Assembly (NCBI GenBank): GCA_030610855.1
Contig: JAUWQY010000008.1
Location: 1 to 62,601, forward strand
DNA: 62,601 bases
Direction: 5' to 3'
From: Dehalococcoidia bacterium
GTDB taxonomy: Bacteria; Chloroflexota; Dehalococcoidia; GIF9; AB-539-J10
Shown: piece after piece, positions 33,186 through 47,729 of the stretch
How positions within the stretch are numbered: the stretch's first letter is position 1
Layout: every line of letters starts with the position of its first letter
The notes under the pieces: model-generated
Database searches by the model: none
Told to the model about the DNA's origin: nothing
The model's input: the letters and a program-made list of their open reading frames with translations, nothing else
Program-made: the position numbers and the translations under genes

Positions 33186-33233
33186 GCATTGGTTTTTGCG
33201 CACTGTTGAATCAGCAAGTCGGAGGTGCTCCAT

Positions 33234-34121
33234 ATGGTCATCATAGGTGAGAACATACACGTCATCGCCCAGGCAGTTTCCACAGCGATCAGGGAGAGAA
33301 ACCCCAGCGTAATCCAGGGTTTAGCTAAGGCTCAAGCTGAAGCCGGAGCTGATTACATCGACCTGAACGTCGGCCCCATGAAAAAAGACACCGAAGAGAC
33401 CATGCAATGGTTGGTGAACGCTGTTCAGGAGGCTACCGATCTGCCCCTGTCCATAGATACTATGAATCCTGTAGCTATGGAGGCAGGCCTAAAAGCTTGC
33501 CAGAAGAGACCTTTGCTTAACTCTGCTTCGGGGAAGACTGACTCCAAAGAGCAAATGCTCCCTCTGGCCCGGAAGTACAACTGCGATGTCGTGATTTCCG
33601 TGATTACGGATAAGGGGATGCCTCCAGACGTCGAGTCCAAAATAGAGAGTATTATGGATACGGTCGCCCATGCCAATGAACTGGGGATTCCCAATGAAGA
33701 CATCTGGGTTGACCCCATACTCCTTCCCGTGAGTACCGCTGGCGAAGGGCAGAGGTTCGCCGTAGCCTGTTTGGAATTTATAAAGATACTCGAGGACGTT
33801 TTGCCCGAGATTAAATCAACTGTGGGGCTTTCCAATGTATCTAATGGGGTGCCCAATGAACTCAGGCCGATTCTTAACCGCACGTATCTGGTTATGCTGG
33901 GGAGAAACAGGCTTTATTCTGCTATCGCCGACCCTTTGGATAAAGAGCTTATGAGCTTAATTAAGGGCGGGATGCCGGAAATTGTGGAACTTATCTGCAA
34001 GGTCATGGACGGGGAAGATATAGACATCTCTTCCCTATCTCCAAAGGAAGTTGAGTATGTTAAGACAGCCAAGGTTCTTATGGGAGAGACCTTGTACTCC
34101 GATGCCTGGCTTGAAAGTTAG
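33234..34121 (+). CDS. acsE: Methyl-THF:corrinoid/iron-sulfur protein methyltransferase
   Basis: Moves the methyl group from methyl-tetrahydrofolate to the cobalt of the corrinoid iron-sulfur protein, linking the two branches of the Wood-Ljungdahl pathway. 295 residues, a pterin-binding TIM barrel: IIGENIHV, GADYIDLNVGP, LPLSIDTMNPVAMEAGL, LLNSASG, DVVISVITDKGMPPD, IWVDPILLPVS, VGLSNVSNGVPNELRPILNR. ATG 33234 is preceded by GGAGGTG. First gene of the CODH/ACS operon. Use of this enzyme shows a THF-based (bacterial) methyl branch. Confidence 0.94.
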   Translation: MVIIGENIHVIAQAVSTAIRERNPSVIQGLAKAQAEAGADYIDLNVGPMKKDTEETMQWLVNAVQEATDLPLSIDTMNPVAMEAGLKACQKRPLLNSASGKTDSKEQMLPLARKYNCDVVISVITDKGMPPDVESKIESIMDTVAHANELGIPNEDIWVDPILLPVSTAGEGQRFAVACLEFIKILEDVLPEIKSTVGLSNVSNGVPNELRPILNRTYLVMLGRNRLYSAIADPLDKELMSLIKGGMPEIVELICKVMDGEDIDISSLSPKEVEYVKTAKVLMGETLYSDAWLES

Positions 34122-34127
34122 CGCTCA

Positions 34128-34190
34128 GTTTGTCACCCTGAGCAATAGCGAAGGGGCTAGATTCCTCGCCATGCTCAGAATGACAGGCGG
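34128..34190. repeat. REP-like element in the acsE-acsD spacer
   Basis: tttgtcaccctgagcaatag ... attcctcgcc ... ctcagaatgacagg is an imperfect palindrome of the CHSERSEES family. It occupies most of the 107-bp spacer; a good ribosome-binding site (TAAGGAGGATAAGGA) for acsD follows. Confidence 0.65.
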
Positions 34191-34228
34191 GTTGTTAAAC
34201 AACCTTTGAACGTTAAGGAGGATAAGGA

Positions 34229-35134
34229 ATGGGATATAAAGCACCAATTGAAGCGTATACTGGGTCAGTTAGAGAGATAACTATTGGGAAAGAAAAGAAA
34301 AGCTTGAAGATTGGGGGAGAGAATATTCTCCCCTTTCATTCTTTTGATGAAGGCTCAAATCCCAATCCGGCAAAGTTTGCCCTAGAAATTCTTGATATGG
34401 AACCTCAGGATTGGCCGGAACACCTAACTCAGCCTTTCAAAGATGTGATAGCCGACCCGGTGAAATGGGCCAAGAGATGTGAGGAACTTGGTGCAGATGC
34501 AGTGTTTCTTCGTCTTGTAAGCACCGACCCGGCAGTGAAGGATAGTTCTGCGGACGGAGCGGCAGCCATGGCAAAAAAGGTGGCCGAGGCTATAAACATT
34601 CCCCTAATTATTTATGGCTCCGGGGATGATAAGAAAGATGCCGAGGTGCTGCCCAAAGTTGCCGAGGCTTGCGATGGAATGAATCTCCTTATAGGACCGG
34701 TTCAAAAGGAGAACTATGAGATTGTAGGGAGGGCGCTCTTAGAACATGGACATAATGCTAGCGCTCTAAGTCCTCTGGACATCAATTTGCTTAAGGAAAT
34801 AAATGTAAAACTTTGCAAGTTTTTCCCCGGTGAAAAGATAGTTATCGATCCTGAATCCGCAGCATTAGGCTATGGTATGGAATACAGCTTTTCTCTGATG
34901 GAAAGGGTGAAGCAGATTGGGATAATCACCAAGGATAACATGACAATGATGCCCATTATCGCTGACCTAGGGGGAGAGTGCTGGAAGACAAAACAGGCTA
35001 AGGAAAATAAGGAACAAGGATTGCTGTGGGAAGGAATGACAGCGCTATCGCTTTTGCTGGCTGGGGCAAATATCCTTGTCTTAAGGCATCCCGAGACCTT
35101 GAAATTAATAAAGGAAACGATAGAAGCGAGGTGA
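34229..35134 (+). CDS. acsD: Corrinoid/iron-sulfur protein small (delta/beta) subunit
   Basis: TIM-barrel subunit of the CoFeSP that carries the methyl group to acetyl-CoA synthase. 301 residues: REITIGKEKKSLKIGGENILPFHSFDEGSNPNP, VIADPVKWAKRCEELGADAVFLRLVSTDP, IIYGSGDDKKDAEVLPKVAEAC, IDPESAALGYGMEYSFSLMERV. All are typical of AcsD/CdhD. Its partner AcsC is four genes downstream. Strong ribosome-binding site; cdhA follows after 3 nt. Confidence 0.94.
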   Translation: MGYKAPIEAYTGSVREITIGKEKKSLKIGGENILPFHSFDEGSNPNPAKFALEILDMEPQDWPEHLTQPFKDVIADPVKWAKRCEELGADAVFLRLVSTDPAVKDSSADGAAAMAKKVAEAINIPLIIYGSGDDKKDAEVLPKVAEACDGMNLLIGPVQKENYEIVGRALLEHGHNASALSPLDINLLKEINVKLCKFFPGEKIVIDPESAALGYGMEYSFSLMERVKQIGIITKDNMTMMPIIADLGGECWKTKQAKENKEQGLLWEGMTALSLLLAGANILVLRHPETLKLIKETIEAR

Positions 35135-35137
35135 AAA

Positions 35138-37444
35138 ATGGCAGAATTAAAAGAAATAACCAGAAAATTAGAGGAGATTCATAGAAAGATAAAAGCAGAG
35201 ATTCCCTGGGAGCCAGTAGGTCCCACGCCGATGCCGGAAATTCCCGACCTCAGACAGTGGGACATGAGGTTATTGAAAACATATGCGCCTTTTTACGCGC
35301 CATTCTGTGATTTGTGTTGCTTCTGCACCTACGGTAAGTGTGACCTCACCGAAGGAAGGAGAGGCGCCTGTGGTATTGATATAGCTACCCAACAAGCCAG
35401 GTTTGTACTTCTCGCCTGCTTGATGGGATGCTCCGCTCATGCTGCTCATGGTGGGCACATTCTGGAGTTCTTGATTGAAAGGCACGGCCCGGACAAGAAG
35501 ATAGATCTGGGAACATTTATTGAGCTTGAAGCACCAAATATAAGGACAGTTGTAGGCCTGAAGCCTGAGACTCTGGGAGACCTTCAAATAGCTCTAGAGT
35601 ATGTCTTCAAAGAGATTGCGCATCTTCTTGATTCTTGCCATACGGGGCAAGAGGGAAGCGCTCTGGACTATGAATCCAAGGCCTTGCATGCCAGCATGCT
35701 GGACCATGTAGGCATGGAAGTAGCTGATATCGCACAAATAGTGGGATTCAATTATCCCACTTCCGTTGCTGATACACCATTGGTGGATATGGGGTGGGGT
35801 GCAATAGATAAGAGTAAGCCTGTAATTTTAGTATCAGGACACAATCCAGCTACGTCAACGGTATTGATTGACTATCTCAGGGAACACAACCTTGAAGACC
35901 AGGTGGAGGTCTGTGGCCTGTGCTGCACTGCACTGGAAACAACCAGGTATTCGGACAAAGCCAAAATAGTCGGTCCTCTTTCCCGTGCGCTTTTTTTCAT
36001 GAGGGCAGGCATTGCCGATGTGATAATGACTGACGAGCAGTGCATCAGAACAGATACGCCTCAAGAAGCAGCCAAAGTGGGTTCAGCAGTTATCGCCTGC
36101 CTGGACAAGGCTATGTATGGGCTTGAGGATGCCACTGACTGGGATCCAGATGAGATAGTAAGGCGAATGGTGGATAATAAGGAGCAGTTCGCTATCCTGG
36201 ACTCCCCCAAAGCGGCCGAGGTAGCGGTTAAAGTTGCCATGGAAATCGCTCCTAAGAGGAAGAAGGAATGGCTATCAGAGGAGGAGGCTATAGAGCTGGC
36301 TAAGAAGTGCACCAATTGTGGCATATGCGAGCAGGTATGCCCTAACCTCTTCTCTATCGGCGACGGTATAACTGAGGTCGCCAAAGGTAACTTTGACTTA
36401 ATAAGGCAGCAATTCCTGCAATGTATTGGCTGCGGTAAGTGCGAACAGGAGTGCCCTCGAGACGTTCCTATATTCAGACTGATGCAGGTGGCTGCAGGCA
36501 ACGAGACCTGGAAATGCAGAGCTGGACGCGGTCCGGTTATGGATACCGAGATAAGAAACGTTGGTGCGCCTATAACCCTGGGCACAATCCCGGGAATTAT
36601 TGCCTTAGTAGGCTGTTCTAACTACCCCGATATAGATGATATTGCCGACATGGTGGATGAATTCGCCAAAAGAAAGTATATCGTGGTTCTCACAGGTTGT
36701 GCCGCCATGGTTGCCGGAATGAAAAAGGACAAGGATGGCTTGACAGTTTATGAAAAATACCCTCCCGACTTCGATGCTGGTGGAGTGGTAAATATTGGCT
36801 CCTGTGTTTCCAATGCCCACATCTCTGGGGCAGCAATAAAAATAGCCAATATCTTTGCTGCTCTTCCCTTGAGAGGCAACTACGAGGTCATGGCCGATTA
36901 TGTCCTTAATCGGGTGGGCGCCTGCGGCGTAGCCTGGGGGGCAATGTCCCAGAAGGCAGCTTCCATTGGCACAGGGTTTAACAGGCTGGGTGTTCCTGTC
37001 GTTTTGGGCCCTCACTCCTCCAAGTATAGAAGGCTATACCTCTCCAGGAAGGAAGAGGACGACTGGAGAGTCATGGATGCCAGGAAGAGGGAGATTGTGG
37101 ATACTGTGGAGCCAGCACCTGAGCACCTGGCTTATGTATGTGAGACTAAAGAGAAGGCCATGCCCATGATCGCTAAGCTTTGCATAAGAAGAAACGATAC
37201 CCCTCAGGGAAGGGCGGTAAAGTTGAACCACTATATTTCCCTGTACAAGAAATATATTGGAGCCGGTCTTCCTGAAGACATTCACCTCTTCGTGCGAAGG
37301 GATCCTGATATTCCACTGGTCTATAAGAAAGAAGTGCGAGCACACTTACAGGAAATCGGCTGGCAGCCCAGGGAGCCGATTGGACTTCCTACTCTCATTG
37401 GCACCTATGCCACTAAGGTTCCTCTGGATGCAGTGATACACTAG
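35138..37444 (+). CDS. cdhA: CO dehydrogenase alpha subunit, archaeal ACDS type
   Basis: Interconverts CO2 and CO and hands CO to acetyl-CoA synthase. 768 residues. It has an N-terminal cysteine cluster, FCDLCCFCTYGKCDL with GRRGACGID (B/D clusters), two inserted 4Fe-4S ferredoxin motifs at about residues 391-440 (CTNCGICEQVCPN and CIGCGKCEQECPRDVP), then the C-cluster region with VNIGSCVSNAHISG, RVGACGVAWG and VVLGPHSSKYRRLY. The inserted ferredoxin domain and the cdhB neighbour mark the archaeal CdhA class rather than bacterial AcsA/CooS, which lacks both. Confidence 0.93.
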   Translation: MAELKEITRKLEEIHRKIKAEIPWEPVGPTPMPEIPDLRQWDMRLLKTYAPFYAPFCDLCCFCTYGKCDLTEGRRGACGIDIATQQARFVLLACLMGCSAHAAHGGHILEFLIERHGPDKKIDLGTFIELEAPNIRTVVGLKPETLGDLQIALEYVFKEIAHLLDSCHTGQEGSALDYESKALHASMLDHVGMEVADIAQIVGFNYPTSVADTPLVDMGWGAIDKSKPVILVSGHNPATSTVLIDYLREHNLEDQVEVCGLCCTALETTRYSDKAKIVGPLSRALFFMRAGIADVIMTDEQCIRTDTPQEAAKVGSAVIACLDKAMYGLEDATDWDPDEIVRRMVDNKEQFAILDSPKAAEVAVKVAMEIAPKRKKEWLSEEEAIELAKKCTNCGICEQVCPNLFSIGDGITEVAKGNFDLIRQQFLQCIGCGKCEQECPRDVPIFRLMQVAAGNETWKCRAGRGPVMDTEIRNVGAPITLGTIPGIIALVGCSNYPDIDDIADMVDEFAKRKYIVVLTGCAAMVAGMKKDKDGLTVYEKYPPDFDAGGVVNIGSCVSNAHISGAAIKIANIFAALPLRGNYEVMADYVLNRVGACGVAWGAMSQKAASIGTGFNRLGVPVVLGPHSSKYRRLYLSRKEEDDWRVMDARKREIVDTVEPAPEHLAYVCETKEKAMPMIAKLCIRRNDTPQGRAVKLNHYISLYKKYIGAGLPEDIHLFVRRDPDIPLVYKKEVRAHLQEIGWQPREPIGLPTLIGTYATKVPLDAVIH

Positions 37445-37476
37445 TAACAGGAAAGACGGCTTAAAAGGAGGGTAAA

Positions 37477-38028
37477 ATGAGTGCAGTACTGCCACGTCAT
37501 AGAGTGAATGTCTTAACGGGCACAAAATCAGCCAGATTAATAGAAGATGCCGCGGAATATGCCGATTTCATCAAAAAGGCCAAGAGACCGCTGCTTGTAA
37601 TCGGTCCTCTCTTGCTGGCATCTACGGCTGATGGAAAACTACTTCTGGAGTACGCCCTGGACATAGCTAAAGCGGCTGGTATTCCAATATGCGCAACGGC
37701 GCAGACTAAGGGAAAGGTGGTGGAGCTTGGGGTGAAACCAGATAGCGTCTATGATGTCGTGGAAATAGCGAACGCTCTTAAAGACCCTGAATGGCAGGGA
37801 GTTAAGAAGGAAGGAAACCACGACCTGGTGATCTTGTTCGGCATAAGGTCGGACCTTGGTAATCAGAGTCTTTCTACACTCAAGCACTTCGCACCTCATT
37901 TAAAGACTATGACGCTGTGCAAGCATTACTTCCCTCATGCCAACTACTCACTCCCTAATTTCAAGAAGGATGCGAAGTGGCAAGAGTTCTTAGAAAGCTT
38001 GATAGCCAATTTAAAGAAAGGAGACTAA
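37477..38028 (+). CDS. cdhB: CO dehydrogenase epsilon subunit (ACDS)
   Basis: 183 residues. It has a Rossmann-like/DHS-type fold with AKRPLLVIGPLLLAST, AAGIPICATAQTKGKV, HDLVILFGIRSDLGNQSLSTLKHFAP and LCKHYFPHANYSLPN, typical of CdhB. In archaeal complexes it sits on CdhA; its exact role (perhaps FAD or electron transfer) is unsettled. Its presence is a strong sign of the archaeal-type complex. Ribosome-binding site AAAAGGAGG before ATG; cdhC begins 6 nt after the stop. Confidence 0.9.
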   Translation: MSAVLPRHRVNVLTGTKSARLIEDAAEYADFIKKAKRPLLVIGPLLLASTADGKLLLEYALDIAKAAGIPICATAQTKGKVVELGVKPDSVYDVVEIANALKDPEWQGVKKEGNHDLVILFGIRSDLGNQSLSTLKHFAPHLKTMTLCKHYFPHANYSLPNFKKDAKWQEFLESLIANLKKGD

Positions 38029-38034
38029 AGGAAA

Positions 38035-39282
38035 ATGGAAGGCGAATTTCATGCAGATATGGGACCACAGTATGAAGGAGAGGTGATAAGAAAGGAAGAC
38101 CTCTACATCGAGTTCGGTGGGCCAAAAGTAGCACATAAGTTTGAATTAGCAACAGTTAAGAGCCCTGATGAAATAGAGAATGAGAAAGTAGAGATTATCG
38201 GCCCGGACCTAGATGATTTGCAGCCTTACGATGAAGAGAAAGGCGGTGGTAGCTATCCTATTGCCGTTCTGGTGGATGTTGCCGGAGGGGAATTGGACAA
38301 GGATGCCGAAGCAATCATCGAGAGAAGAATTCATATGTTCACCAACATGATTGAGGGCTGGTATCATATGAATCAGAGGCAGGATGTATGGATGAGGATA
38401 AATAAAGACTGCTATAAAAAGGGCTTTACTTCCCTGCGGGAATTGGGAGAAATTTATATCTTGCTTTATACATCAGAGATGTCAATCATCGAGAGCATCC
38501 AGGTCACTATTATCACCGATGAAAAAAAGATAGAGGAGCTCCTTCCCCACGCTTTAGAGGTTTATGCCGCCAGGGATGAGCGGGCAAGGACATTGAATGA
38601 TGAGGATGTGGATACTTTCTACGGCTGCGTTCTATGCCAGAGCTTCGCCCCAACCCATATCTCTATCATAACTCCAAATAGAATCGCCAACTGTGGAGCC
38701 ATAAACTGGTTTGACGGCAGAGCTGCTGCCAAGATTGACCCTGATGGGCCCATATTTGCCATACCAAAGGGGGAGCTTATAGATGCTATAAAAGGGGAAT
38801 ATTCGGGAGCGAATGCAATTGAAGCTGAAAAGTCTCTGGGAACCTACGATAGAGTTTATCTCTACAGTGCATTTGAGCACCCCCATACATCCTGCGGCTG
38901 TTTCGAAGCAATCGTATATTACATTCCTGAAGCGGATGCCTTTGGGGTAGTGAACAGAGACTTCAAGGGCGAAACTGTAGTTGGAGAAACATTTTCCCAC
39001 ATGGCTGGTGAAACTTCGGGAGGAAAACAAATAGAAGGAAGATTAGGAACCGGACTGGAGCAACTAAGGTCGCCCAAATTCATCCAGGCGGATGGTGGCC
39101 TGGCCAGGATAGTGTGGATGCCCAAGGATATAAAGGAAAGGGTTAAAGATGCCCTGGAGGCGAAAGGACTCTACGATAAGATAGCCACAGAGGAAGACGT
39201 TAAAAACGTGGACGAGCTTCTAGAGTTCTTAGAAAAGGTGGGGCATCCCTGGATAAAAGGGGAGGTAGAACTTCCGACATAA
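38035..39282 (+). CDS. cdhC: Acetyl-CoA synthase (CdhC type, short form)
   Basis: Joins CO, methyl and CoA at the Ni-Ni-4Fe4S A-cluster. 415 residues: GPKVAHKFELATVKSPDEIE, LYTSEMSIIESIQVTIITD, A-cluster cysteines in FYGCVLCQSFAPTHI (about residue 198), NRIANCGAINWFDGRAAAK, and the Cys-Gly-Cys nickel ligands in SCGCFEAIVYY (about 287). It lacks the roughly 300-residue N-terminal domain by which bacterial AcsB contacts CODH, so it is the archaeal CdhC form and consistent with cdhA/cdhB. Confidence 0.93.
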   Translation: MEGEFHADMGPQYEGEVIRKEDLYIEFGGPKVAHKFELATVKSPDEIENEKVEIIGPDLDDLQPYDEEKGGGSYPIAVLVDVAGGELDKDAEAIIERRIHMFTNMIEGWYHMNQRQDVWMRINKDCYKKGFTSLRELGEIYILLYTSEMSIIESIQVTIITDEKKIEELLPHALEVYAARDERARTLNDEDVDTFYGCVLCQSFAPTHISIITPNRIANCGAINWFDGRAAAKIDPDGPIFAIPKGELIDAIKGEYSGANAIEAEKSLGTYDRVYLYSAFEHPHTSCGCFEAIVYYIPEADAFGVVNRDFKGETVVGETFSHMAGETSGGKQIEGRLGTGLEQLRSPKFIQADGGLARIVWMPKDIKERVKDALEAKGLYDKIATEEDVKNVDELLEFLEKVGHPWIKGEVELPT

Positions 39283-39293
39283 ATACAAGAGTA

Positions 39294-39342
39294 GTCAGTA
39301 GTCAGCGGTCAGCTAACTGAAAGCTGAAAACTGATAGCTGCA
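39294..39342. repeat. Degenerate AGTCAG/GCTGA repeat in the cdhC-acsC spacer
   Basis: agtagtcagtagtcagcggt followed by cagctaactgaaagctgaa and actgatagctg. The halves are made of short direct and inverted copies of TCAGC/GCTGA. It fills most of the 74-bp spacer and ends just before GAAGGAGG, the acsC ribosome-binding site. Confidence 0.6.
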
Positions 39343-39356
39343 GAAGGAGGTTTGTT

Positions 39357-40721
39357 ATGCCAATTGCAGGTTCTGGAATTGTAAAGATGCTTCCCGGAAG
39401 AAAGCCATGTAAAGATTGTGGCTTCCCTACTTGTTTTGCCTTCGCCATGAAGCTAGCGTCCGGCGGAGTCACCGTGGACAAGTGTCCCTATCTCTCAGAG
39501 GAAGTGAAAGACAAGTTGCTGGATGCTCTGGCGCCGCCTATAAAGCTTGTTACTGTGGGCTCTGGGGAGAACGCCGTCAAAATCGGGAACGAGGAAGTCG
39601 TATACCGCCATGAGAAGACATTCGTCCACTCGCCCGCCATTACCCTCCGTATCTCAGACAAAGAGGACAATGCCAGAGTTGAGGAGAAGATAAAGAAGAT
39701 AAAGGAACTGCAGTTCCCGTGGGTTGGCGTGAATCTAAAGGCAGACCTCCTGGCACTTCATTTCGAATCAGGGAACAAGGATAGGTTTCTGGCTCTGACC
39801 AAGAAGGTCAACGACGCAACAGACGTGGGCGTGGTCTTAATCTCAGAAGACATGGACGCCCTGTTTGCTGCACGGGACATATGCGCAGACAGGCATCCGC
39901 TCATTTACCCCATAACAAAGGAGAACATTGAAGAGGCCCTTCCCAGAATCAAAGCCAACCTTACTCCTGTTGGCCTTCGTGGGAAGAACATCGAAGAACT
40001 GATCCCTCTCACTACCAGGTTGAAGGATGCCGGGATCGAGGAACTGGTTCTGGACCCGGGTTCTAAGAACGTACTGGAGGGCATACGAGACCAGACTTTC
40101 ATCAGAAGGGCGGCACTGAAGCAAGGATTCAGGCCTCTTGGCTACCCCACCATTGCCTTTCCATGCTTCTTAGCCAAAGACGGGTTGAAGGAGATGATAG
40201 CGGGGTCGGCGTTCATAAACAAGTGGGCAAGCATCATCGTCTTTTCCGATTTCGACCAGTATTCTCTGCTTCCGCTTCTAGTTCACCGGCTCAATATCTA
40301 CACGGATCCTCGTTTCCCCATGGCAGTAGAAGAGAAGTATTATGAAGTGGGAGAACCTGATGAATCTTCCCCGGTCCTTGTCACTTCAAACTGGGCTTTG
40401 ACCTACTTCCTTGTCTCATCGGCTGTTGAGGCTACCAAGGTTCCCGCCTACATCTGCGTTAAGGAGGCAGAAGGGCTTGGCGTCCTCACTGCCTGGGCAG
40501 CGGGTAAGTTTAGCGGCGATTCCGTAGGAACATTTGTCAAGAAATGTGGCATCGAGGATAAGGTGAAACACAGAAAGATAATTATCCCGGGGAAAGTGGC
40601 CAGAATCAAAGGTGAGCTTGAAGATGCGCTGGACCTTAAGTGGGAGGTAATAATTGGTCCCCGGGAAACGACCGGAATAGGGGCTTTCCTGCCTGGATTT
40701 GCTAAGCAACTCAAGGGATAG
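39357..40721 (+). CDS. acsC: Corrinoid/iron-sulfur protein large (gamma) subunit
   Basis: 454 residues. The N-terminal 4Fe-4S domain is LPGRKPCKDCGFPTCFAFAMKLASG...CPYL, which holds the low-potential cluster that reactivates Co(II). A TIM barrel and a C-terminal corrinoid-binding domain follow (DKVKHRKIIIPGKVARIKGEL, IIGPRETTGIGAFLPGF). It forms the CoFeSP with AcsD. ATG 39357 with AGGAGG upstream. Confidence 0.94.
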   Translation: MPIAGSGIVKMLPGRKPCKDCGFPTCFAFAMKLASGGVTVDKCPYLSEEVKDKLLDALAPPIKLVTVGSGENAVKIGNEEVVYRHEKTFVHSPAITLRISDKEDNARVEEKIKKIKELQFPWVGVNLKADLLALHFESGNKDRFLALTKKVNDATDVGVVLISEDMDALFAARDICADRHPLIYPITKENIEEALPRIKANLTPVGLRGKNIEELIPLTTRLKDAGIEELVLDPGSKNVLEGIRDQTFIRRAALKQGFRPLGYPTIAFPCFLAKDGLKEMIAGSAFINKWASIIVFSDFDQYSLLPLLVHRLNIYTDPRFPMAVEEKYYEVGEPDESSPVLVTSNWALTYFLVSSAVEATKVPAYICVKEAEGLGVLTAWAAGKFSGDSVGTFVKKCGIEDKVKHRKIIIPGKVARIKGELEDALDLKWEVIIGPRETTGIGAFLPGFAKQLKG

Positions 40722-40740
40722 TCTTGAGTCTGGCGAAGGA

Positions 40741-41232
40741 ATGGTTACAGAAGAACAAGTTGACCAAGTAATAGCTGAGATTTTAGGCTCGTATAGAAAA
40801 GATAGGAAAAATTTAGTTCCCCTGTTGCAAGCAGTCCAGACAAAACTGGGGTATCTCCCCAAGGAAGCGATGAAGGGGATTGCTAGCTTTCTGGAGATGC
40901 CAGAAGTTGATGTTTGGGGGGTTGCTACCTTCTATAATCAGTTTCGCTTTGTTCCGTTAGGAAAATACCACACCGTGGTTTGTATGGGGACTGCTTGTCA
41001 CTTAGCGGGGGGTAGACTTATTTTAGAGGCCCTGGAGCGTGAGTTAGATATCAAAGTAGGCGAGACTGCCGAGGATGGTAACTTTAGCTTGGAAAGGGTC
41101 GCTTGTATTGGGTGCTGCATGCTGGCTCCCGTGATAATAATAAAGGATAAAATCCATCCTAAGATAACGCCTTTTAAGGTGGAAGAGGCTTTGATACCGT
41201 ATAAGCACGAAGCTCAGAGCGAGAAGAGTTGA
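40741..41232 (+). CDS. NuoE/HndA-like 2Fe-2S subunit of an NADH module
   Basis: About 163 residues of the thioredoxin-like 24-kDa subunit family. It shows VPLLQAVQTKLGYLPKEAMKGIA, ATFYNQFRFVPLGKYHTVVCMGTACHLAGG and VACIGCCMLAP; the four cysteines (CxxxxC and CxxxC) ligate a 2Fe-2S cluster. It partners the following NuoF-like protein. No NuoG, hydrogenase or membrane subunit is adjacent. ATG 40741 is chosen by homology; GAAGGA abuts it, so the true signal is unclear and a TTG at 40699 is an alternative. Confidence 0.86.
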   Translation: MVTEEQVDQVIAEILGSYRKDRKNLVPLLQAVQTKLGYLPKEAMKGIASFLEMPEVDVWGVATFYNQFRFVPLGKYHTVVCMGTACHLAGGRLILEALERELDIKVGETAEDGNFSLERVACIGCCMLAPVIIIKDKIHPKITPFKVEEALIPYKHEAQSEKS

Positions 41233-41247
41233 GGCAGAGCCCCTAAC

Positions 41248-41278
41248 CTCTCTCTCTCTCTATCTCTGTCTCTATCTT
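41248..41278 (+). repeat. CT microsatellite in the leader of the NuoF-like gene
   Basis: cctctctctctctctatctc followed by tgtctctatctttt, a 30-nt pyrimidine tract between the NuoE and NuoF stop/start codons. The NuoF start has no purine-rich ribosome-binding site, so this tract occupies the usual position. Confidence 0.7.
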
Positions 41279-41287
41279 TTGTTTAAC

Positions 41288-43192
41288 ATGACTTTCGAGG
41301 AGATTAGTAATAAAGCAAAGTCGGAATGGGAAGCTCTGCAGAAGGGCAACTATATTCTTGTTGGCACAGCCACTTGTGGTCGGGCAGCCGGCGCCCTGGA
41401 TGTAGTTGATGCTTTTGGTAAGGAACTGAAGCGTCGAGGTCTGGAAGTCCCCATTATCCAGGTTGGCTGCATGGAGCTATGCTATGCGGAGCCATTGGTT
41501 ACTATATCCAAGCCTGACTCGCTTCGTGTCGTGTATAACAATGTAACTCCGGAGATTGTACCCCGCCTTGTAGCGGGTTATGTCGCAGGCGATGACCCCT
41601 GCCTCGAGCTTGCCCTCGGCACCCTTGAAGGAGGCGATGAGGAAGCTGTTTATATCCCGGAGCTTCCCAGATATGAACGCGAGCTTCGCCTTATACTGCG
41701 CCGCTGTGGCTATATCGATCCTGAGAGCATGAATGACTACATAGCCAACGGCGGCTATAGCGGTCTGGAGAAGGCATTAAAGATATCGCCAGATGAGATA
41801 ATTGTGGAACTGAAGAAGTCCGGACTGCGGGGGAGAGGAGGGGCTGGCTTTCCCACCCATCGAAAGTGGGAGCAGTGCCGTAAGGCCAAAGGCACGCCGA
41901 AATACGTTATATGCAACGCCGATGAGGGCGACCCCGGTGCTTTCATGGACCGGGTTGTCCTTGAAAGCGACCCCCATCAGGTTATCGAGGGAATGACTAT
42001 TGCCGGCTACGCCGTAGGTGCTGAACAAGGCTATGTTTATGTCCGCGCCGAATATCCCTTAGCCATCGAGCGTGTGCGGATTGCTCTGAAACAAGCCGCC
42101 GAATTTGGTTTCCTGGGAGACAATGTTATGGGCAGTGGTTTCGCGTTTCATATCGAGATAGCAGCAGGGGCCGGTGCCTTCGTCTCCGGGGAAGCGACGG
42201 CGTTAGTCGCGGCTATGGAAGGCAGGAGAAGCGAACCCAGAATCAGGCCTCCTCGCCTTGCCGAGGCTGGCCTCTGGAATAAACCTACTTTGTTAAACAA
42301 CGTGAAAACCTTTGCTTACGTTCCATCCATAATCGAGCGGGGGGCGGAATGGTTCGCCTCCAACGGCACCGAAGGAAGCAAGGGCACGGCGGTGTTCGCC
42401 CTGGCGGGCAAAGTGGTCAATTCGGGATTGGCCGAAGTGCCTATGGGAACAACACTGCGCCAGCTTGTCTATGACATCGGCGGTGGTATTGTTAAAGACA
42501 GGCAGTTCAAAGCGGTGCAGATAGGGGGGCCCTCAGGGGGTTGCCTCCCTGAGGCTCTGCTCGATATCCCTATCGATTATGATTCGCTTCGCGAGGCTGG
42601 CTCGATGATGGGCTCAGGCGGTATCATCATCATGGATGAGGATAACTGCATGGTCGACGCTGCGAGGTTCTTCCTCGATTTTTCGGCCAGGGAATCCTGC
42701 GGGAAGTGCACTATGTGCCGCCTGGGTACCCTGCAAATGCTGCACATTCTGGAGGACATCACGGCCGGCCGGGGCAAAATGGAGGATATCGATCTTGTCC
42801 TCGCGTTAGCTGAGGATGTTAAGGCAGGTTCCCTCTGTGGATTGGGCAAAACAGCGCCCAATCCCGTCCTTACCACCCTCCGCTATTTCCGGGACGAATA
42901 TGAAGCTCATATTCAGGAGAAATTCTGCCCGGCGAAGGTGTGTACCGAACTCATTGTCTATTACATCCTTCCCGACAGGTGTGATAGAGCCTGCGAACAC
43001 TGTGTCCTCACCTGTCCCACCGAAGCAATCAAGGGAGGTAAAGGAGAGGTCAAGATCATAGATCAGGAGAAGTGTTCTAAGTGTGGTACATGCCTGGAAG
43101 TTTGTCCTCCTGAGTATAATGCGGTGGTTAAGCTATCGCCTGTTAGCTCACTCCCTTCACCGGAGTTACCTAAAAGGAGAAGCAAGAAATGA
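41288..43192 (+). CDS. NuoF/HndC-like NADH-binding flavo-iron-sulfur subunit
   Basis: 634 residues in order: thioredoxin-like 2Fe-2S domain (GTATCGRAAGAL, QVGCMELCYAEP), FMN/NADH domain (LRGRGGAGFPTHRKWEQC, CNADEGDPGAFMDR), SLBB, the NuoF 4Fe-4S site (ESCGKCTMCRLGT...SLCGLG), and two C-terminal ferredoxin motifs (CDRACEHCVLTCP, CSKCGTCLEVCPP). It is the diaphorase part of bifurcating or NAD-linked complexes. In this operon it could exchange electrons between NADH and ferredoxin or feed the MetVF complex (inference). ATG 41288; no ribosome-binding site. The stop overlaps the cooC start by 4 nt. Confidence 0.9.
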   Translation: MTFEEISNKAKSEWEALQKGNYILVGTATCGRAAGALDVVDAFGKELKRRGLEVPIIQVGCMELCYAEPLVTISKPDSLRVVYNNVTPEIVPRLVAGYVAGDDPCLELALGTLEGGDEEAVYIPELPRYERELRLILRRCGYIDPESMNDYIANGGYSGLEKALKISPDEIIVELKKSGLRGRGGAGFPTHRKWEQCRKAKGTPKYVICNADEGDPGAFMDRVVLESDPHQVIEGMTIAGYAVGAEQGYVYVRAEYPLAIERVRIALKQAAEFGFLGDNVMGSGFAFHIEIAAGAGAFVSGEATALVAAMEGRRSEPRIRPPRLAEAGLWNKPTLLNNVKTFAYVPSIIERGAEWFASNGTEGSKGTAVFALAGKVVNSGLAEVPMGTTLRQLVYDIGGGIVKDRQFKAVQIGGPSGGCLPEALLDIPIDYDSLREAGSMMGSGGIIIMDEDNCMVDAARFFLDFSARESCGKCTMCRLGTLQMLHILEDITAGRGKMEDIDLVLALAEDVKAGSLCGLGKTAPNPVLTTLRYFRDEYEAHIQEKFCPAKVCTELIVYYILPDRCDRACEHCVLTCPTEAIKGGKGEVKIIDQEKCSKCGTCLEVCPPEYNAVVKLSPVSSLPSPELPKRRSKK

Positions 43193-43956
43193 CAAAAACA
43201 ATCGCCATGGCGGGAAAAGGAGGCGTAGGCAAGACTACCGTTGCTGCCTTAATCGTCAAACTTCTATCCCAGAAGGGGTTGGTTTTGGCCGTGGATGCTG
43301 ACCCCAGCACCAACCTTAACCAGGCCCTGGGGCTACCTCTCGATGATAGTCAGACTGTAGGCAGAATACGGGAGAAGATGACTGAAGATGTCTCCAGGGG
43401 TACTCTCAGCCCCACCATCGTCAAGCAGGAATACCTGTTTGGCAAGATAGTGGAATCGCTGGCAGAGTCCAAAGGATTTGACCTTATAGCCATGGGGCGC
43501 CCCGAGGGGCCCGGATGCTACTGCGCCTCCAATCGATTTCTGCGCACTTCGCTGGATAAGCTGGTGCAGGACCATGAATACGACTATATCGTTATGGACT
43601 GCGAGGCAGGACTGGAACACATAAGCCGCCAAACAACGAGAGACATCGATGTCTTGCTCATCATGTCCGACCCCACGATAAGAGGTATCACTGCGGCAGC
43701 TCGAATGAAGAAGCTAATCGAGGAATTGAGATCGAACGTGGGCAAAACCGGGCTTATCGTCAATCGCGTCAAAGGTGAGCTGTCTCCAGAGATAAAAAGG
43801 GCAATCGAGGAATCTGGCCTCGAGGTTCTTGCCCTGATTCCAGAAGAGCCCGATATGTCGGATCTGGAGATGAAAGGAAAACCCGTGACTGACCTCCCTC
43901 AGGAATCTCCGCTCCAGTCGAAGGTAAAAGAGATAGTCGAGAGCTTGTCTCTATGA
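43189..43956 (+). CDS. cooC: CO dehydrogenase maturation ATPase CooC/AcsF
   Basis: MinD/ParA-type ATPase that helps insert nickel into CODH/ACS. 255 residues: deviant Walker A MAGKGGVGKTTVAAL, LAVDADPSTNLNQALG, the metal-binding CxC in RPEGPGCYCASN, YDYIVMDCEAGLEHISR, DPTIRGITAAARM. AGGAG lies 9 nt before ATG, coupled to the NuoF-like gene. Confidence 0.92.
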   Translation: MTKTIAMAGKGGVGKTTVAALIVKLLSQKGLVLAVDADPSTNLNQALGLPLDDSQTVGRIREKMTEDVSRGTLSPTIVKQEYLFGKIVESLAESKGFDLIAMGRPEGPGCYCASNRFLRTSLDKLVQDHEYDYIVMDCEAGLEHISRQTTRDIDVLLIMSDPTIRGITAAARMKKLIEELRSNVGKTGLIVNRVKGELSPEIKRAIEESGLEVLALIPEEPDMSDLEMKGKPVTDLPQESPLQSKVKEIVESLSL

Positions 43957-44117: not shown

Positions 44118-46145
44118 ATGCAGATGCGCCTGATGGACTACACTAAATTCAGACCAAAACCCGCCGAAGAAATCAGTGAGGTTTTCCAACGAGTCAATCG
44201 GATATTCATCCTCTCATGTGGCAAGTGTTTCAAGAAGTTTGAGGAGGAAGACGAAGGGCAGTACGCGCAGCTTCTGGAGACCCTGGGAGCGGACAGAACG
44301 AAGGTCGTGGGGCATACGCAAGTTGATTTCCTTTGTAACGAATTTCTCTCTGGAAAGAGAATTTCAGACCTGGATCTCTCTCGTTGTGACAGTATAGGGG
44401 TGACTTCTTGCGGCCTGGGAGTCCAGTTTGTCGCCAGGCTCCTTGAGCGGACGCCTGTTTACGCCCTGGCTGATTCAGTGCCACACAGCCCGAACTACCC
44501 GGCTGAGGTTGGCTATCACGGTATTTCCCTGGAAGAAGAGAAATGTGCCGCCTGCGGTCAGTGTTATCTGAATCTGACGGGAGGGATTTGCCCTATTACG
44601 AACTGCGCCAAAGGCCTGTTGAATGGCCCTTGCGGCGGAGCAACCGACGGAAAATGTGAGGTGAACTCAAGTGTTGATTGTGCCTGGGTAAGAATCCATG
44701 AGCGGCTTAAGAAACGGGGAGAGCAGTCCGCCTCAGAATATGTTCAACCAAGAGATTACTCCAGGCCGTCCTGGAAGGTTACGAACGGTCTATCCTTGCA
44801 GAATCAAGCGCTTAGAGGCGGAGGATTCTACGGCGGCTTTCATCCTCTAGAGAATAAGGAGGCAACTGCGGACAAACGGGTAGAGAGATTCCCGGAACCC
44901 CAAGTGGCGGTCATCTTTCTTTCTCAACACGCCGGCAGAAGAGCAAAACCCGTAGTCGAACCGGGCGACAAAGTCAAGGTTGGCCAGAAGGTTGGAGAAG
45001 CCGACGGTTTCGTTTCCTCTTCCATCCACTCTAGCATCAGCGGGAACGTCATATCTGTAGAGGAGCGAGCGTATCCTGCAGCGCAAAGAGAGGAACTGGC
45101 GGTAGTAATAGAAAATGACGGAAAGAACGAATTACATCCTTCGATTCAACCTCGTGACGATTTTGAAGCACTGCCGAAAGAGGCTTTGCTGGACATAATC
45201 AAGGAAAGCGGAATCGTGGGTCTTGGCGGAGCGATGTTTCCGACACACGTGAAATTCTCTCCTCCCAGACCGGTAGATACTCTGCTTGTAAATGGATGTG
45301 AATGCGAGCCTTACCTGAATACTGATAACAGGCTTATGATTGAGCATCCCGAGGAGATTCTCGCCGGAATAAGTATAGTCCAGAAGATTCTGGGGGTCGA
45401 TAAGGTGTTTGTGGGAGTCGAGGAGAATAAACCTGAGGCTATAGCAGCATTAAGCAGGTTTTCAGACAAATATCCATCGGTGGAGCTGGTCAGCCTGAAA
45501 ACCAAGTATCCTCAAGGCGCGGAAAGGTCGCTGATCAAGAGAATTCTCGACAGAGACGTCCCTCCACCTCCGAAGGGACTTCCTTTCGATGTCGGGGTGA
45601 TGGTCTCAAATGTCGGTACGCTTTTTGCCATTTATCAGGCAGTGGCAAAGGGCATTCCCCTGTTTCAAAGGGTCATAACGGTATCGGGAGAAGGCTTGAC
45701 CAGGCCCGGAAACTACCTGGTTAAGATAGGGACTCCGATCAAGGATATCATCCAGTATTGCTTTGATGAGAACGTGGACGGACTTCTGGAGAAATACGAT
45801 GTAAAGATGGGCGGTGCAATTATGGGGATTCCCCAGGCGAGCCTGGAGTCGTCCGTCATAAAAGGGACGACGGGTCTCACTGTCCTCAAGAAGCACCCCG
45901 TGATGGCGTCTGAGGAAAGGGATTGCATAAAATGCGGTCGTTGCGTGGAAGTCTGTCCCATGCAGCTTTATCCTCTTTTCTATGGTTTCTACGGGAAGAA
46001 GGGCGATCTGGCAAAGGCAGTCGAGCACAAGGTAGAGGAATGCGTGGAATGCGGATGCTGTGAATACATGTGCGCTTCCAAGATTGCCCTTCTCAGTTTC
46101 ATAAGACAGGAGAAGGCGTATGCTCGCAGTGCAAGTAAAGGCTGA
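44118..46145 (+). CDS. MetV-RnfC fusion protein
   Basis: 675 residues made of two proteins that are separate elsewhere. Residues 1-205 are MetV-like (DUF5981/MTHFR_C): ILSCGKCFKK, VTSCGLGVQF, CAACGQCYLNLTGGICPITNC, LLNGPCGGATDGKC. Residues about 225-675 are a full RnfC: GGFYGGFHPLENKEAT, LSQHAGRRAKPVVEPGDKVK, GFVSSSIHSSISG, nucleotide-site GIVGLGGAMFPTHVKF, VNGCECEPYLNTDNRLM, and two 4Fe-4S motifs (CIKCGRCVEVCP, CVECGCCEYMC). In Acetobacterium MetF, MetV and RnfC2 form an NADH-dependent methylene-THF reductase; here two of the three are fused. No other rnf gene is near. The start may be 44118, 44124 or 44133. Confidence 0.9.
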   Translation: MQMRLMDYTKFRPKPAEEISEVFQRVNRIFILSCGKCFKKFEEEDEGQYAQLLETLGADRTKVVGHTQVDFLCNEFLSGKRISDLDLSRCDSIGVTSCGLGVQFVARLLERTPVYALADSVPHSPNYPAEVGYHGISLEEEKCAACGQCYLNLTGGICPITNCAKGLLNGPCGGATDGKCEVNSSVDCAWVRIHERLKKRGEQSASEYVQPRDYSRPSWKVTNGLSLQNQALRGGGFYGGFHPLENKEATADKRVERFPEPQVAVIFLSQHAGRRAKPVVEPGDKVKVGQKVGEADGFVSSSIHSSISGNVISVEERAYPAAQREELAVVIENDGKNELHPSIQPRDDFEALPKEALLDIIKESGIVGLGGAMFPTHVKFSPPRPVDTLLVNGCECEPYLNTDNRLMIEHPEEILAGISIVQKILGVDKVFVGVEENKPEAIAALSRFSDKYPSVELVSLKTKYPQGAERSLIKRILDRDVPPPPKGLPFDVGVMVSNVGTLFAIYQAVAKGIPLFQRVITVSGEGLTRPGNYLVKIGTPIKDIIQYCFDENVDGLLEKYDVKMGGAIMGIPQASLESSVIKGTTGLTVLKKHPVMASEERDCIKCGRCVEVCPMQLYPLFYGFYGKKGDLAKAVEHKVEECVECGCCEYMCASKIALLSFIRQEKAYARSASKG

Positions 46146-46755
46146 GGCAGAGATACTGCCCCTGATTTCCTCAAAGAGGCTTTTCATCTTTGAATGCCTG
46201 GGCTGTCGGGACGTTCACTATCCCGTGGAGAAGGCAGCAGAATTCATGGACAGCTTGAAGGAAGAAATCGTGGGCAAGGCAACTCTTGATTATCTATGCC
46301 ACAGGGAGTTTGTTCACGAATACGTCAAGGCGTATGCCGGTGAAATAGAGAGGGCACAGGTGATCCTTGTCTTCTCCTGCGGCGTAGGCGCTCAAGTTGT
46401 TTCCTCGCTGCTGGAAGATAGGATAGTCTATACCTGTTGCGATACGCTTTATCTGAACGGTTTCCAGGGACTTACTGCGAAGGAGTTCAACTGTGATCAA
46501 TGCGGCGAATGTTATCTGAACTATACCGGAGGGCTTTGCCCCGTTGCTCTATGTTCCAAGAACCTTCTCAACGGTCCCTGTGGCGGCTCACAGGCCGGCA
46601 AATGTGAAGTTGATCCCGATATGCCCTGCGTCTGGCAGCAGATCTTCGACCGCCTTGCCAAACTGGGACAGCTTCATACATTGGAGAGGCTCGGTACGCC
46701 GAAGAATTGGAATGTGAGTCCCGCTTCATCAGCGCCAGAAAAGAGGCTTCCCTAG
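46120..46755 (+). CDS. metV: Second MetV-like zinc/iron-sulfur subunit
   Basis: 211 residues, a stand-alone MetV: FIFECLGCRDVHYP, DYLCHREF, LVFSCGVGAQVV, CDQCGECYLNYTGGLCPVALCSK, LLNGPCGGSQAGKCEV. It begins 26 nt inside the fusion gene with GGAGAAGG as ribosome-binding site, so it is translationally coupled. It is a clear paralog of residues 1-200 of the fusion protein. Known MetV proteins bind MetF and carry the electron-accepting cluster for methylene-THF reductase. Confidence 0.88.
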   Translation: MLAVQVKAEAEILPLISSKRLFIFECLGCRDVHYPVEKAAEFMDSLKEEIVGKATLDYLCHREFVHEYVKAYAGEIERAQVILVFSCGVGAQVVSSLLEDRIVYTCCDTLYLNGFQGLTAKEFNCDQCGECYLNYTGGLCPVALCSKNLLNGPCGGSQAGKCEVDPDMPCVWQQIFDRLAKLGQLHTLERLGTPKNWNVSPASSAPEKRLP

Positions 46756-46799
46756 AGTGTCCCGATCTCACCGGGATGAGCGAAACAACCGGAGGAGCA

Positions 46800-47729
46800 A
46801 TGAAGACCAGAAGTAATCTTGAACGGGTACTGGAGTCCGGGCAGTTTGCCGTCACAGGCGAATTAGGACCGCCACGGAGCGCCGACGCGGAGGTTATCAG
46901 AAAGAAGGCCAAGATACTGAAAGGGCATGTAGATGCCTTTAATATCACCGACGGTCAGACTGCCGTCGTGCGAATGGCATCGTGGGCCGCTGCCATCATA
47001 GGCAAAGAGGAGGGGTTGGAACCCATCGTGCAGATGACCTGCCGCGACCGAAACCGCATTGCTCTCCAGATGGATGTGCTGGGCATCGCAGCACTGGGCA
47101 TAAACAACATGCTATGCCTCACCGGTGACCACCAGAAATTCGGTAACCACCCTGCGGCCAGAGGTGTCTATGATCTCGACTCCATTCAGTTGGTCAGGAT
47201 GGTGAAGGATATGCGGGACGAGAAGAAGTTCCAGTGTGGCGATGAGATGGCAGTTGAGCCCCGTCTCTTCATCGGCGCCGCCGAGAATCCCTTTGCCGAC
47301 CCATTTGAGTTCCGGGTAACACGTCTGGCCAAGAAGGTAGAGGCGGGAGCGGACTTCATCCAGACTCAGATTATCTACAATGTAGATAAGTTCGCAGAGT
47401 GGATGAAGGGGGTACGCGATAGGGGACTTCATGAGCGGGTGAAGATACTCGCCGGTGTTGCCCCCATAAAGTCGATGGGTGCCGCCAGATACATGAAGAC
47501 TAAGGTTCCCGGCATGGATGTACCGGACAGCGTTATTGAGCGTCTTCAAGGAGTAACCAAGGAGCAGGTGTCCAGGGAGGGCATCAAGCTTTGCGTCGAC
47601 ATCATCAATCAGGTGCGTCAAATCGAGGGCGTGGCTGGTATTCACCTGATGGCCATCGAATGGGAGGAGGTTGTGCCCGAGATAGTAGAGGCGGCCGGCC
47701 TCTTGCCCCGCCCCAAAATAGCCCCATGA
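46800..47729 (+). CDS. metF: Methylenetetrahydrofolate reductase
   Basis: Flavoprotein TIM barrel that reduces methylene-THF to methyl-THF, the substrate of AcsE. 309 residues: FAVTGELGPPRSADAEVI, VDAFNITDGQTAVVRM, VQMTCRDRNRIALQMDVLG, MLCLTGDHQKFG, FIGAAENPFADP, EAGADFIQTQIIYN, ILAGVAPIKSMGAARYM. ATG 46800 after GGAGG is chosen; the frame is open to 46707 in the metV gene. The TGA overlaps the next ATG (ATGA). Confidence 0.92.
   Translation: MKTRSNLERVLESGQFAVTGELGPPRSADAEVIRKKAKILKGHVDAFNITDGQTAVVRMASWAAAIIGKEEGLEPIVQMTCRDRNRIALQMDVLGIAALGINNMLCLTGDHQKFGNHPAARGVYDLDSIQLVRMVKDMRDEKKFQCGDEMAVEPRLFIGAAENPFADPFEFRVTRLAKKVEAGADFIQTQIIYNVDKFAEWMKGVRDRGLHERVKILAGVAPIKSMGAARYMKTKVPGMDVPDSVIERLQGVTKEQVSREGIKLCVDIINQVRQIEGVAGIHLMAIEWEEVVPEIVEAAGLLPRPKIAP

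Follow-up and report, generated by a model that had tools for sequence, protein, structure and literature searches.

The 675-aa MetV-RnfC protein encoded by rnfC2 (44118..46145, + strand) in the window, a 62,601-nucleotide stretch of the genome of a Dehalococcoidia bacterium, is, judged by its sequence, the known electron-input subunit RnfC2, and the fusion itself is one already known. The interest that remains after the claim of novelty falls lies in an exchange of input modules. In the genus of the window, the operon position held by rnfC2 is taken in sister species by a [NiFe] hydrogenase, and the joint between the modules appears to lie inside the separate MetV subunit.

The MetV-RnfC protein

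The gene is a single, ATG-started, uninterrupted frame of 675 codons. Pfam and NCBIfam domains bear out the preliminary description in that a MetV part and a complete RnfC are joined in one protein. The N-terminal MetV domain (44118..44762, +; residues 1-215), assigned from the Pfam profile and a cysteine comparison, includes DUF5981 (DUF5981/MTHFR_C match at residues 137-214, 44526-44759, +; E 1e-28). The RnfC part (44826..46127, +; residues 237-670) is made up of a barrel-sandwich domain (RnfC_N, residues 237-336), an FMN/NADH domain (Nuo51 FMN-binding, 361-507), an SLBB domain and two 4Fe-4S motifs (599-655), and the NCBIfam rnfC profile scores 492 bits on the product. The flavin/nucleotide-site motif GLGGAMFPTHVK (45219..45254, +; residues 368-379) and both ferredoxin motifs of the CxxCxxCxxxC form (C603/606/609/613 at 45924..45956, + and C642/645/648/652 at 46041..46073, +) are present as had been claimed, and the cluster cysteines and the core glycines of the flavin and cluster sites are invariant across 26 aligned fusions. 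Along its length the RnfC part matches the RnfC chains of solved Rnf complexes (9eri, 351 bits; 7zc6, 344 bits), and it shares with them the GLGGAxFPTHVK motif and the two cluster motifs. In the fused MetV domain all eight C-terminal (cluster) cysteines and four N-terminal cysteines are kept; Ala118 replaces the fifth N-terminal cysteine, which is invariant in the separate MetV of such clusters. No sequence match to a solved structure was found for MetV, fused or separate. The fusion was modelled with AlphaFold2 (mean pLDDT 70.6, pTM 0.58), and the model is confident in the MetV N domain and the RnfC core and poor in both cluster regions and the linker.

That the fusion is an artefact of assembly or of a frameshift is next to impossible, and this reading is rejected by full-length homologues in two ranges of identity. 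Eight genomes among the 60 relatives searched, seven congeners and one from a different genus of the family, carry it at full or nearly full length (67-95% identity). Farther afield (44-56% identity), full-length fusions were found in two taxa: the class of a Clostridiales bin, where 6 of 391 genomes have one (44-47%), and the phylum of an unclassified bacterium, where 13 of 35 do (47-56%). Sampling of the window genome's own class found the fusion in 6 of 393 genomes, the window genome included. The join is without a stop in 25 full-length homologues from other genomes, and the linker is open and unbroken in the alignment of 26 full-length fusions from separate genomes. No relative was found in viral contigs.

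The preliminary description knew of no such fusion and took the RnfC2 of Acetobacterium to be separate from MetV. Both statements were in error: Poehlein et al. (2012) described A. woodii RnfC2 (Awo_c09290), which sits ahead of metV and metF, as having, compared with RnfC1, a 220-residue N-terminal MetV-like extension (PMC3315566), and RnfC2 with a MetV part is also described in PMC8515935 and PMC8760232. Because RnfC2 has been published with the same make-up, the MetV-RnfC architecture is not new, and these three papers dispose of the reading as an undescribed fusion. Many described homologs had been named as the finding that would undo the novelty, and in substance the architecture is both described and widespread. 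The window protein, with MetV N-terminal to a complete RnfC that has the FMN/NADH domain and two 4Fe-4S motifs, groups with the MetV-fused RnfC: the RnfC parts of all sampled fusions form a single clade apart from unfused RnfC (SH-aLRT 97). The MetV domains of the fusions likewise fall into a single clade, distinct from the one that the separate MetV proteins of the same clusters make up. A. woodii RnfC2 is not in the RnfC tree, and the identity rests on its published description and on the orthologues from the class of the Clostridiales bin.

The window protein and A. woodii RnfC2, of the type III (3S) RnfC2-MetV-MetF system, have in common the N-terminal MetV and C-terminal RnfC, the gene order rnfC2-metV-metF, and the flavin and cluster sites. 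They differ in host, here a member of the Dehalococcoidia, and in setting: the window module is the last part of a CODH/ACS operon whose CdhA is archaeal-type, whereas that of A. woodii lies with fhs, fchA and folD. The RnfC of Rnf complexes (PDB 9eri, 7zc6, 8ahx) corresponds to the entire C-terminal 430 residues of the window protein, but it lacks the MetV extension, is encoded in an rnf operon and falls outside the fusion clade.

Operon context and predicted reaction

The preliminary description missed the next gene, a separate metV (46120..46755, +; 211 aa, by profile match) whose first 26 nt overlap the end of rnfC2, and the metF behind it (about 46797..47729, +), which by profile match and tree encodes the catalytic flavoprotein, off the usual type III branch. 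The three genes are adjacent, in the order of the type III (3S) NADH-dependent methylene-THF reductase; metV is downstream in 28 of 29 fusion loci and metF as well in 27, the exceptions stopping at contig edges. A cooC-like ATPase gene (43189..43956, +) forms the left edge of the exchangeable slot. Farther upstream (33225..43192, +) are genes for an acsE-like methyltransferase, cdhD, cdhA, cdhB, cdhC, cdhE, nuoE and nuoF, assigned from profiles except for cdhB and cdhC, which are named from position and size without a profile match. The CODH subunit (35138-37444) is an archaeal-type CdhA (TIGR00314, 1096 bits); the operon around it is bacterial and also holds cdhE. nuoE and a 637-aa nuoF with a C-terminal ferredoxin domain (40741-43192) lie between cdhE and cooC in both states of the slot.

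Very probably RnfC2 is the subunit that oxidises NADH in a type III (3S) methylene-THF reductase, RnfC2-MetV-MetF, whose genes end the CODH/acetyl-CoA synthase operon. NADH would reduce FMN in the RnfC domain, and electrons would pass over both [4Fe-4S] clusters of the RnfC part, then over two in the fused MetV and two more in the separate MetV, to the MetF flavin, which would reduce methylene-THF to methyl-THF, or do the reverse when methyl groups are oxidised. Neither bifurcation nor a membrane complex would be required. Six [4Fe-4S] clusters are predicted because the cysteines of RnfC, fused MetV and separate MetV are kept, a count that agrees with the iron found in the A. woodii enzyme, a 1:1:1 RnfC2-MetV-MetF complex with 2 FMN and about 24 Fe (PMC8760232). 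We infer NADH as donor, the stoichiometry and the direction from this enzyme, for which NADH:methylene-THF activity has been reported (PMC8760232). The earlier reading of the locus as an A. woodii-like NADH-dependent methylene-THF reductase, in which the NADH/FMN site is joined to the MetV cluster chain, thus largely stands, shorn of its novelty. Two features count against the type III assignment: the position of MetF off the usual type III branch, and nuoE-nuoF in the operon as an alternative entry for NADH.

Poehlein et al. (2012) proposed that RnfC2 takes the place of RnfC in the membrane Rnf complex, coupling methylene-THF reduction to ion transport (PMC3315566), and the window genome does hold a full rnf operon. 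This ordinary operon, with RnfD, lies elsewhere in the genome (G000 C46, L031), separate from rnfC2, around which neither rnfD nor the other rnf subunits were found. RnfD was not found in the RnfC2-bearing genomes G004, G008, G012, G013, G017, G030, G672, G1075 and G1068, some of them incomplete; G012 is 96% complete, and no other RnfC is among the matches listed for it. Since RnfC2 is present without detectable RnfD in G012 and others, it is not merely a part of Rnf, and membership in that complex is very unlikely, the A. woodii enzyme being apparently soluble as well (PMC8760232). In another genome of the genus an RnfC and RnfD pair (L040:7112-12658, G014 C17) lies beside a long oxidoreductase-like gene and a ferredoxin-like gene that replace rnfGEAB, and this locus possibly encodes a different Rnf-like complex.

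Bifurcation, in which NADH would reduce methylene-THF and ferredoxin together, was suggested for A. woodii in 2012 (PMC3315566) and would suit the many clusters and the nuoEF in the same operon. It is nevertheless very unlikely, given that the purified A. woodii enzyme neither reduced ferredoxin nor was stimulated by it (PMC8760232) and that RnfC2 has a single flavin domain with no additional one (Pfam). Alternatively, the operon's NuoEF could be the NADH module of MetVF (X type), with RnfC2 relaying electrons to something else. nuoE and nuoF are at hand in the operon, NuoEFG-MetVF clusters have been reported in Chloroflexi (PMC8515935), and a similar set lies elsewhere in the window genome (L043). 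However, congeners with the hydrogenase in place of RnfC2 also have nuoEF ahead of cooC, so that nuoEF belongs with the cdh genes rather than with the RnfC2 module. There is also no NuoG-like gene at the window locus, and this assignment of NuoEF is highly improbable.

The RnfC2-MetV-MetF module can be set beside two other MetVF sets of the same genome. One (L042:1094-10969, contig C54) is type IV-like, with HdrA-like proteins and MvhD/FlpD, and the other (L043:7432-15533, contig C16) is X-type-like, with NuoEF and a molybdopterin NuoG/formate-dehydrogenase-like protein, so that three MetVF systems occur in one 1.6 Mb genome. The type IV (6S) reductase MetVF-HdrABC-MvhD has the MetVF core in common with the window locus, but no hdrABC-mvhD was found beside the window metVF. 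X-type MetVF with NuoEFG has in common both the MetVF core and the nuoEF in the operon; in the window it is RnfC2, not NuoG, that precedes metV.

The exchangeable slot and the separate MetV

In the window genus the operon reads cdhD-cdhA-cdhB-cdhC-cdhE-nuoE-nuoF-cooC, a variable slot and metF. The slot contains rnfC2 and metV in nine genomes (G000, G004, G008, G011, G012, G013, G014, G017, G018; the upstream view is cut by a contig end in G013, G008 and G017), and hydrogenase small subunit, large subunit, maturation protease and metV in nine others (G001, G003, G005, G006, G007, G010, G015, G016, G019). The two never occur together in a genome of the genus, and neither is seen in G002 and G009. 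On the operon tree, two slot changes are needed within the genus. This hydrogenase belongs to the [NiFe]/NiFeSe group, and its maturation protease is HybD-like; the small subunit is without a twin-arginine leader and the enzyme looks cytoplasmic. Uptake hydrogenases that are more distant within the class do carry the leader, and they have no MetV as neighbour. Hydrogenase adjoining MetV recurs in other Dehalococcoidia families, and in sister genomes the [NiFe] hydrogenase and maturation protease lie directly upstream of metV-metF in the cdh operon (L133:8960-12603, L130:646-4211, L137:6953-10558). The slot hydrogenase with MetVF is a candidate H2-driven methylene-THF reductase; no description of the hydrogenase-metV-metF arrangement was found in the literature searched.

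Within the genus, the window MetF shows 85-96% identity to its counterparts from either slot state. In the tree it does not group with the MetF that accompanies RnfC2 elsewhere, the one from sister genus G030 among them. Of the window's separate MetV, just the N half falls in the branch of RnfC2-linked MetV. The MetF/MetV group shared by 3S enzymes (group II, PMC8515935) takes in G030 and leaves out the window genus, and the window enzyme is classed as 3S on subunit composition only, not on MetF/MetV phylogeny.

The two halves of the separate MetV have different relatives. Over residues 1-120, identity to G030 is 68% and to hydrogenase-type MetV from the genus about 30%; for residues 121-200 the values are 55% and 69-75%. 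The N-half tree groups the window protein with G030 (96/98) and the C-half tree with the hydrogenase type (100/99). An AU test rejected grouping of the C half with G030 (p 0.005); grouping of the N half alone with the hydrogenase type was not rejected (p 0.19). The DNA across the metV-metF junction (46564-46900) is 74-77% identical to most hydrogenase-type operons and gives no alignment to G030. On the model of the fused MetV domain, the jump in identity falls where the N-terminal alpha/beta domain gives way to the cluster domain. From the identity jump, the half trees and the DNA alignment we infer a recombination junction within metV (46480..46554, +), upstream of which the gene is RnfC2-type and downstream hydrogenase-type, making the separate MetV a chimera. 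The RnfC2 module would have been joined there to the MetV C-terminal half and the MetF that are used with [NiFe] hydrogenase in sister species. The chimeric MetV and the MetF of another branch also set the window enzyme apart from the A. woodii 3S enzyme.

It is rather likely that methylene-THF reductases are built by swapping input modules ahead of a MetF that stays in place, the seam running through MetV. The donor, which is RnfC2 where NADH is used and a cytoplasmic [NiFe] hydrogenase where H2 is, would bind to the N half of MetV, and MetF to its C-terminal cluster domain. The window enzyme would then be an NADH module on a hydrogenase-type MetVF, and its counterpart in sister species an H2-driven hydrogenase-MetVF reductase.

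Implications

The fusion as such adds little, RnfC2 having been known since 2012. The type III gene set is extended to Dehalococcoidia and a candidate phylum, and the RnfC2-bearing genomes without a detectable Rnf complex argue for RnfC2 as a soluble NADH module. What is new is the exchange of hydrogenase and rnfC2 at the same operon position via a chimeric MetV, the hybrid assembly being a modest variant. The exchange amounts to a natural experiment for telling the donor-facing half of MetV from the MetF-facing one, and it points to a testable H2-driven methylene-THF reductase.
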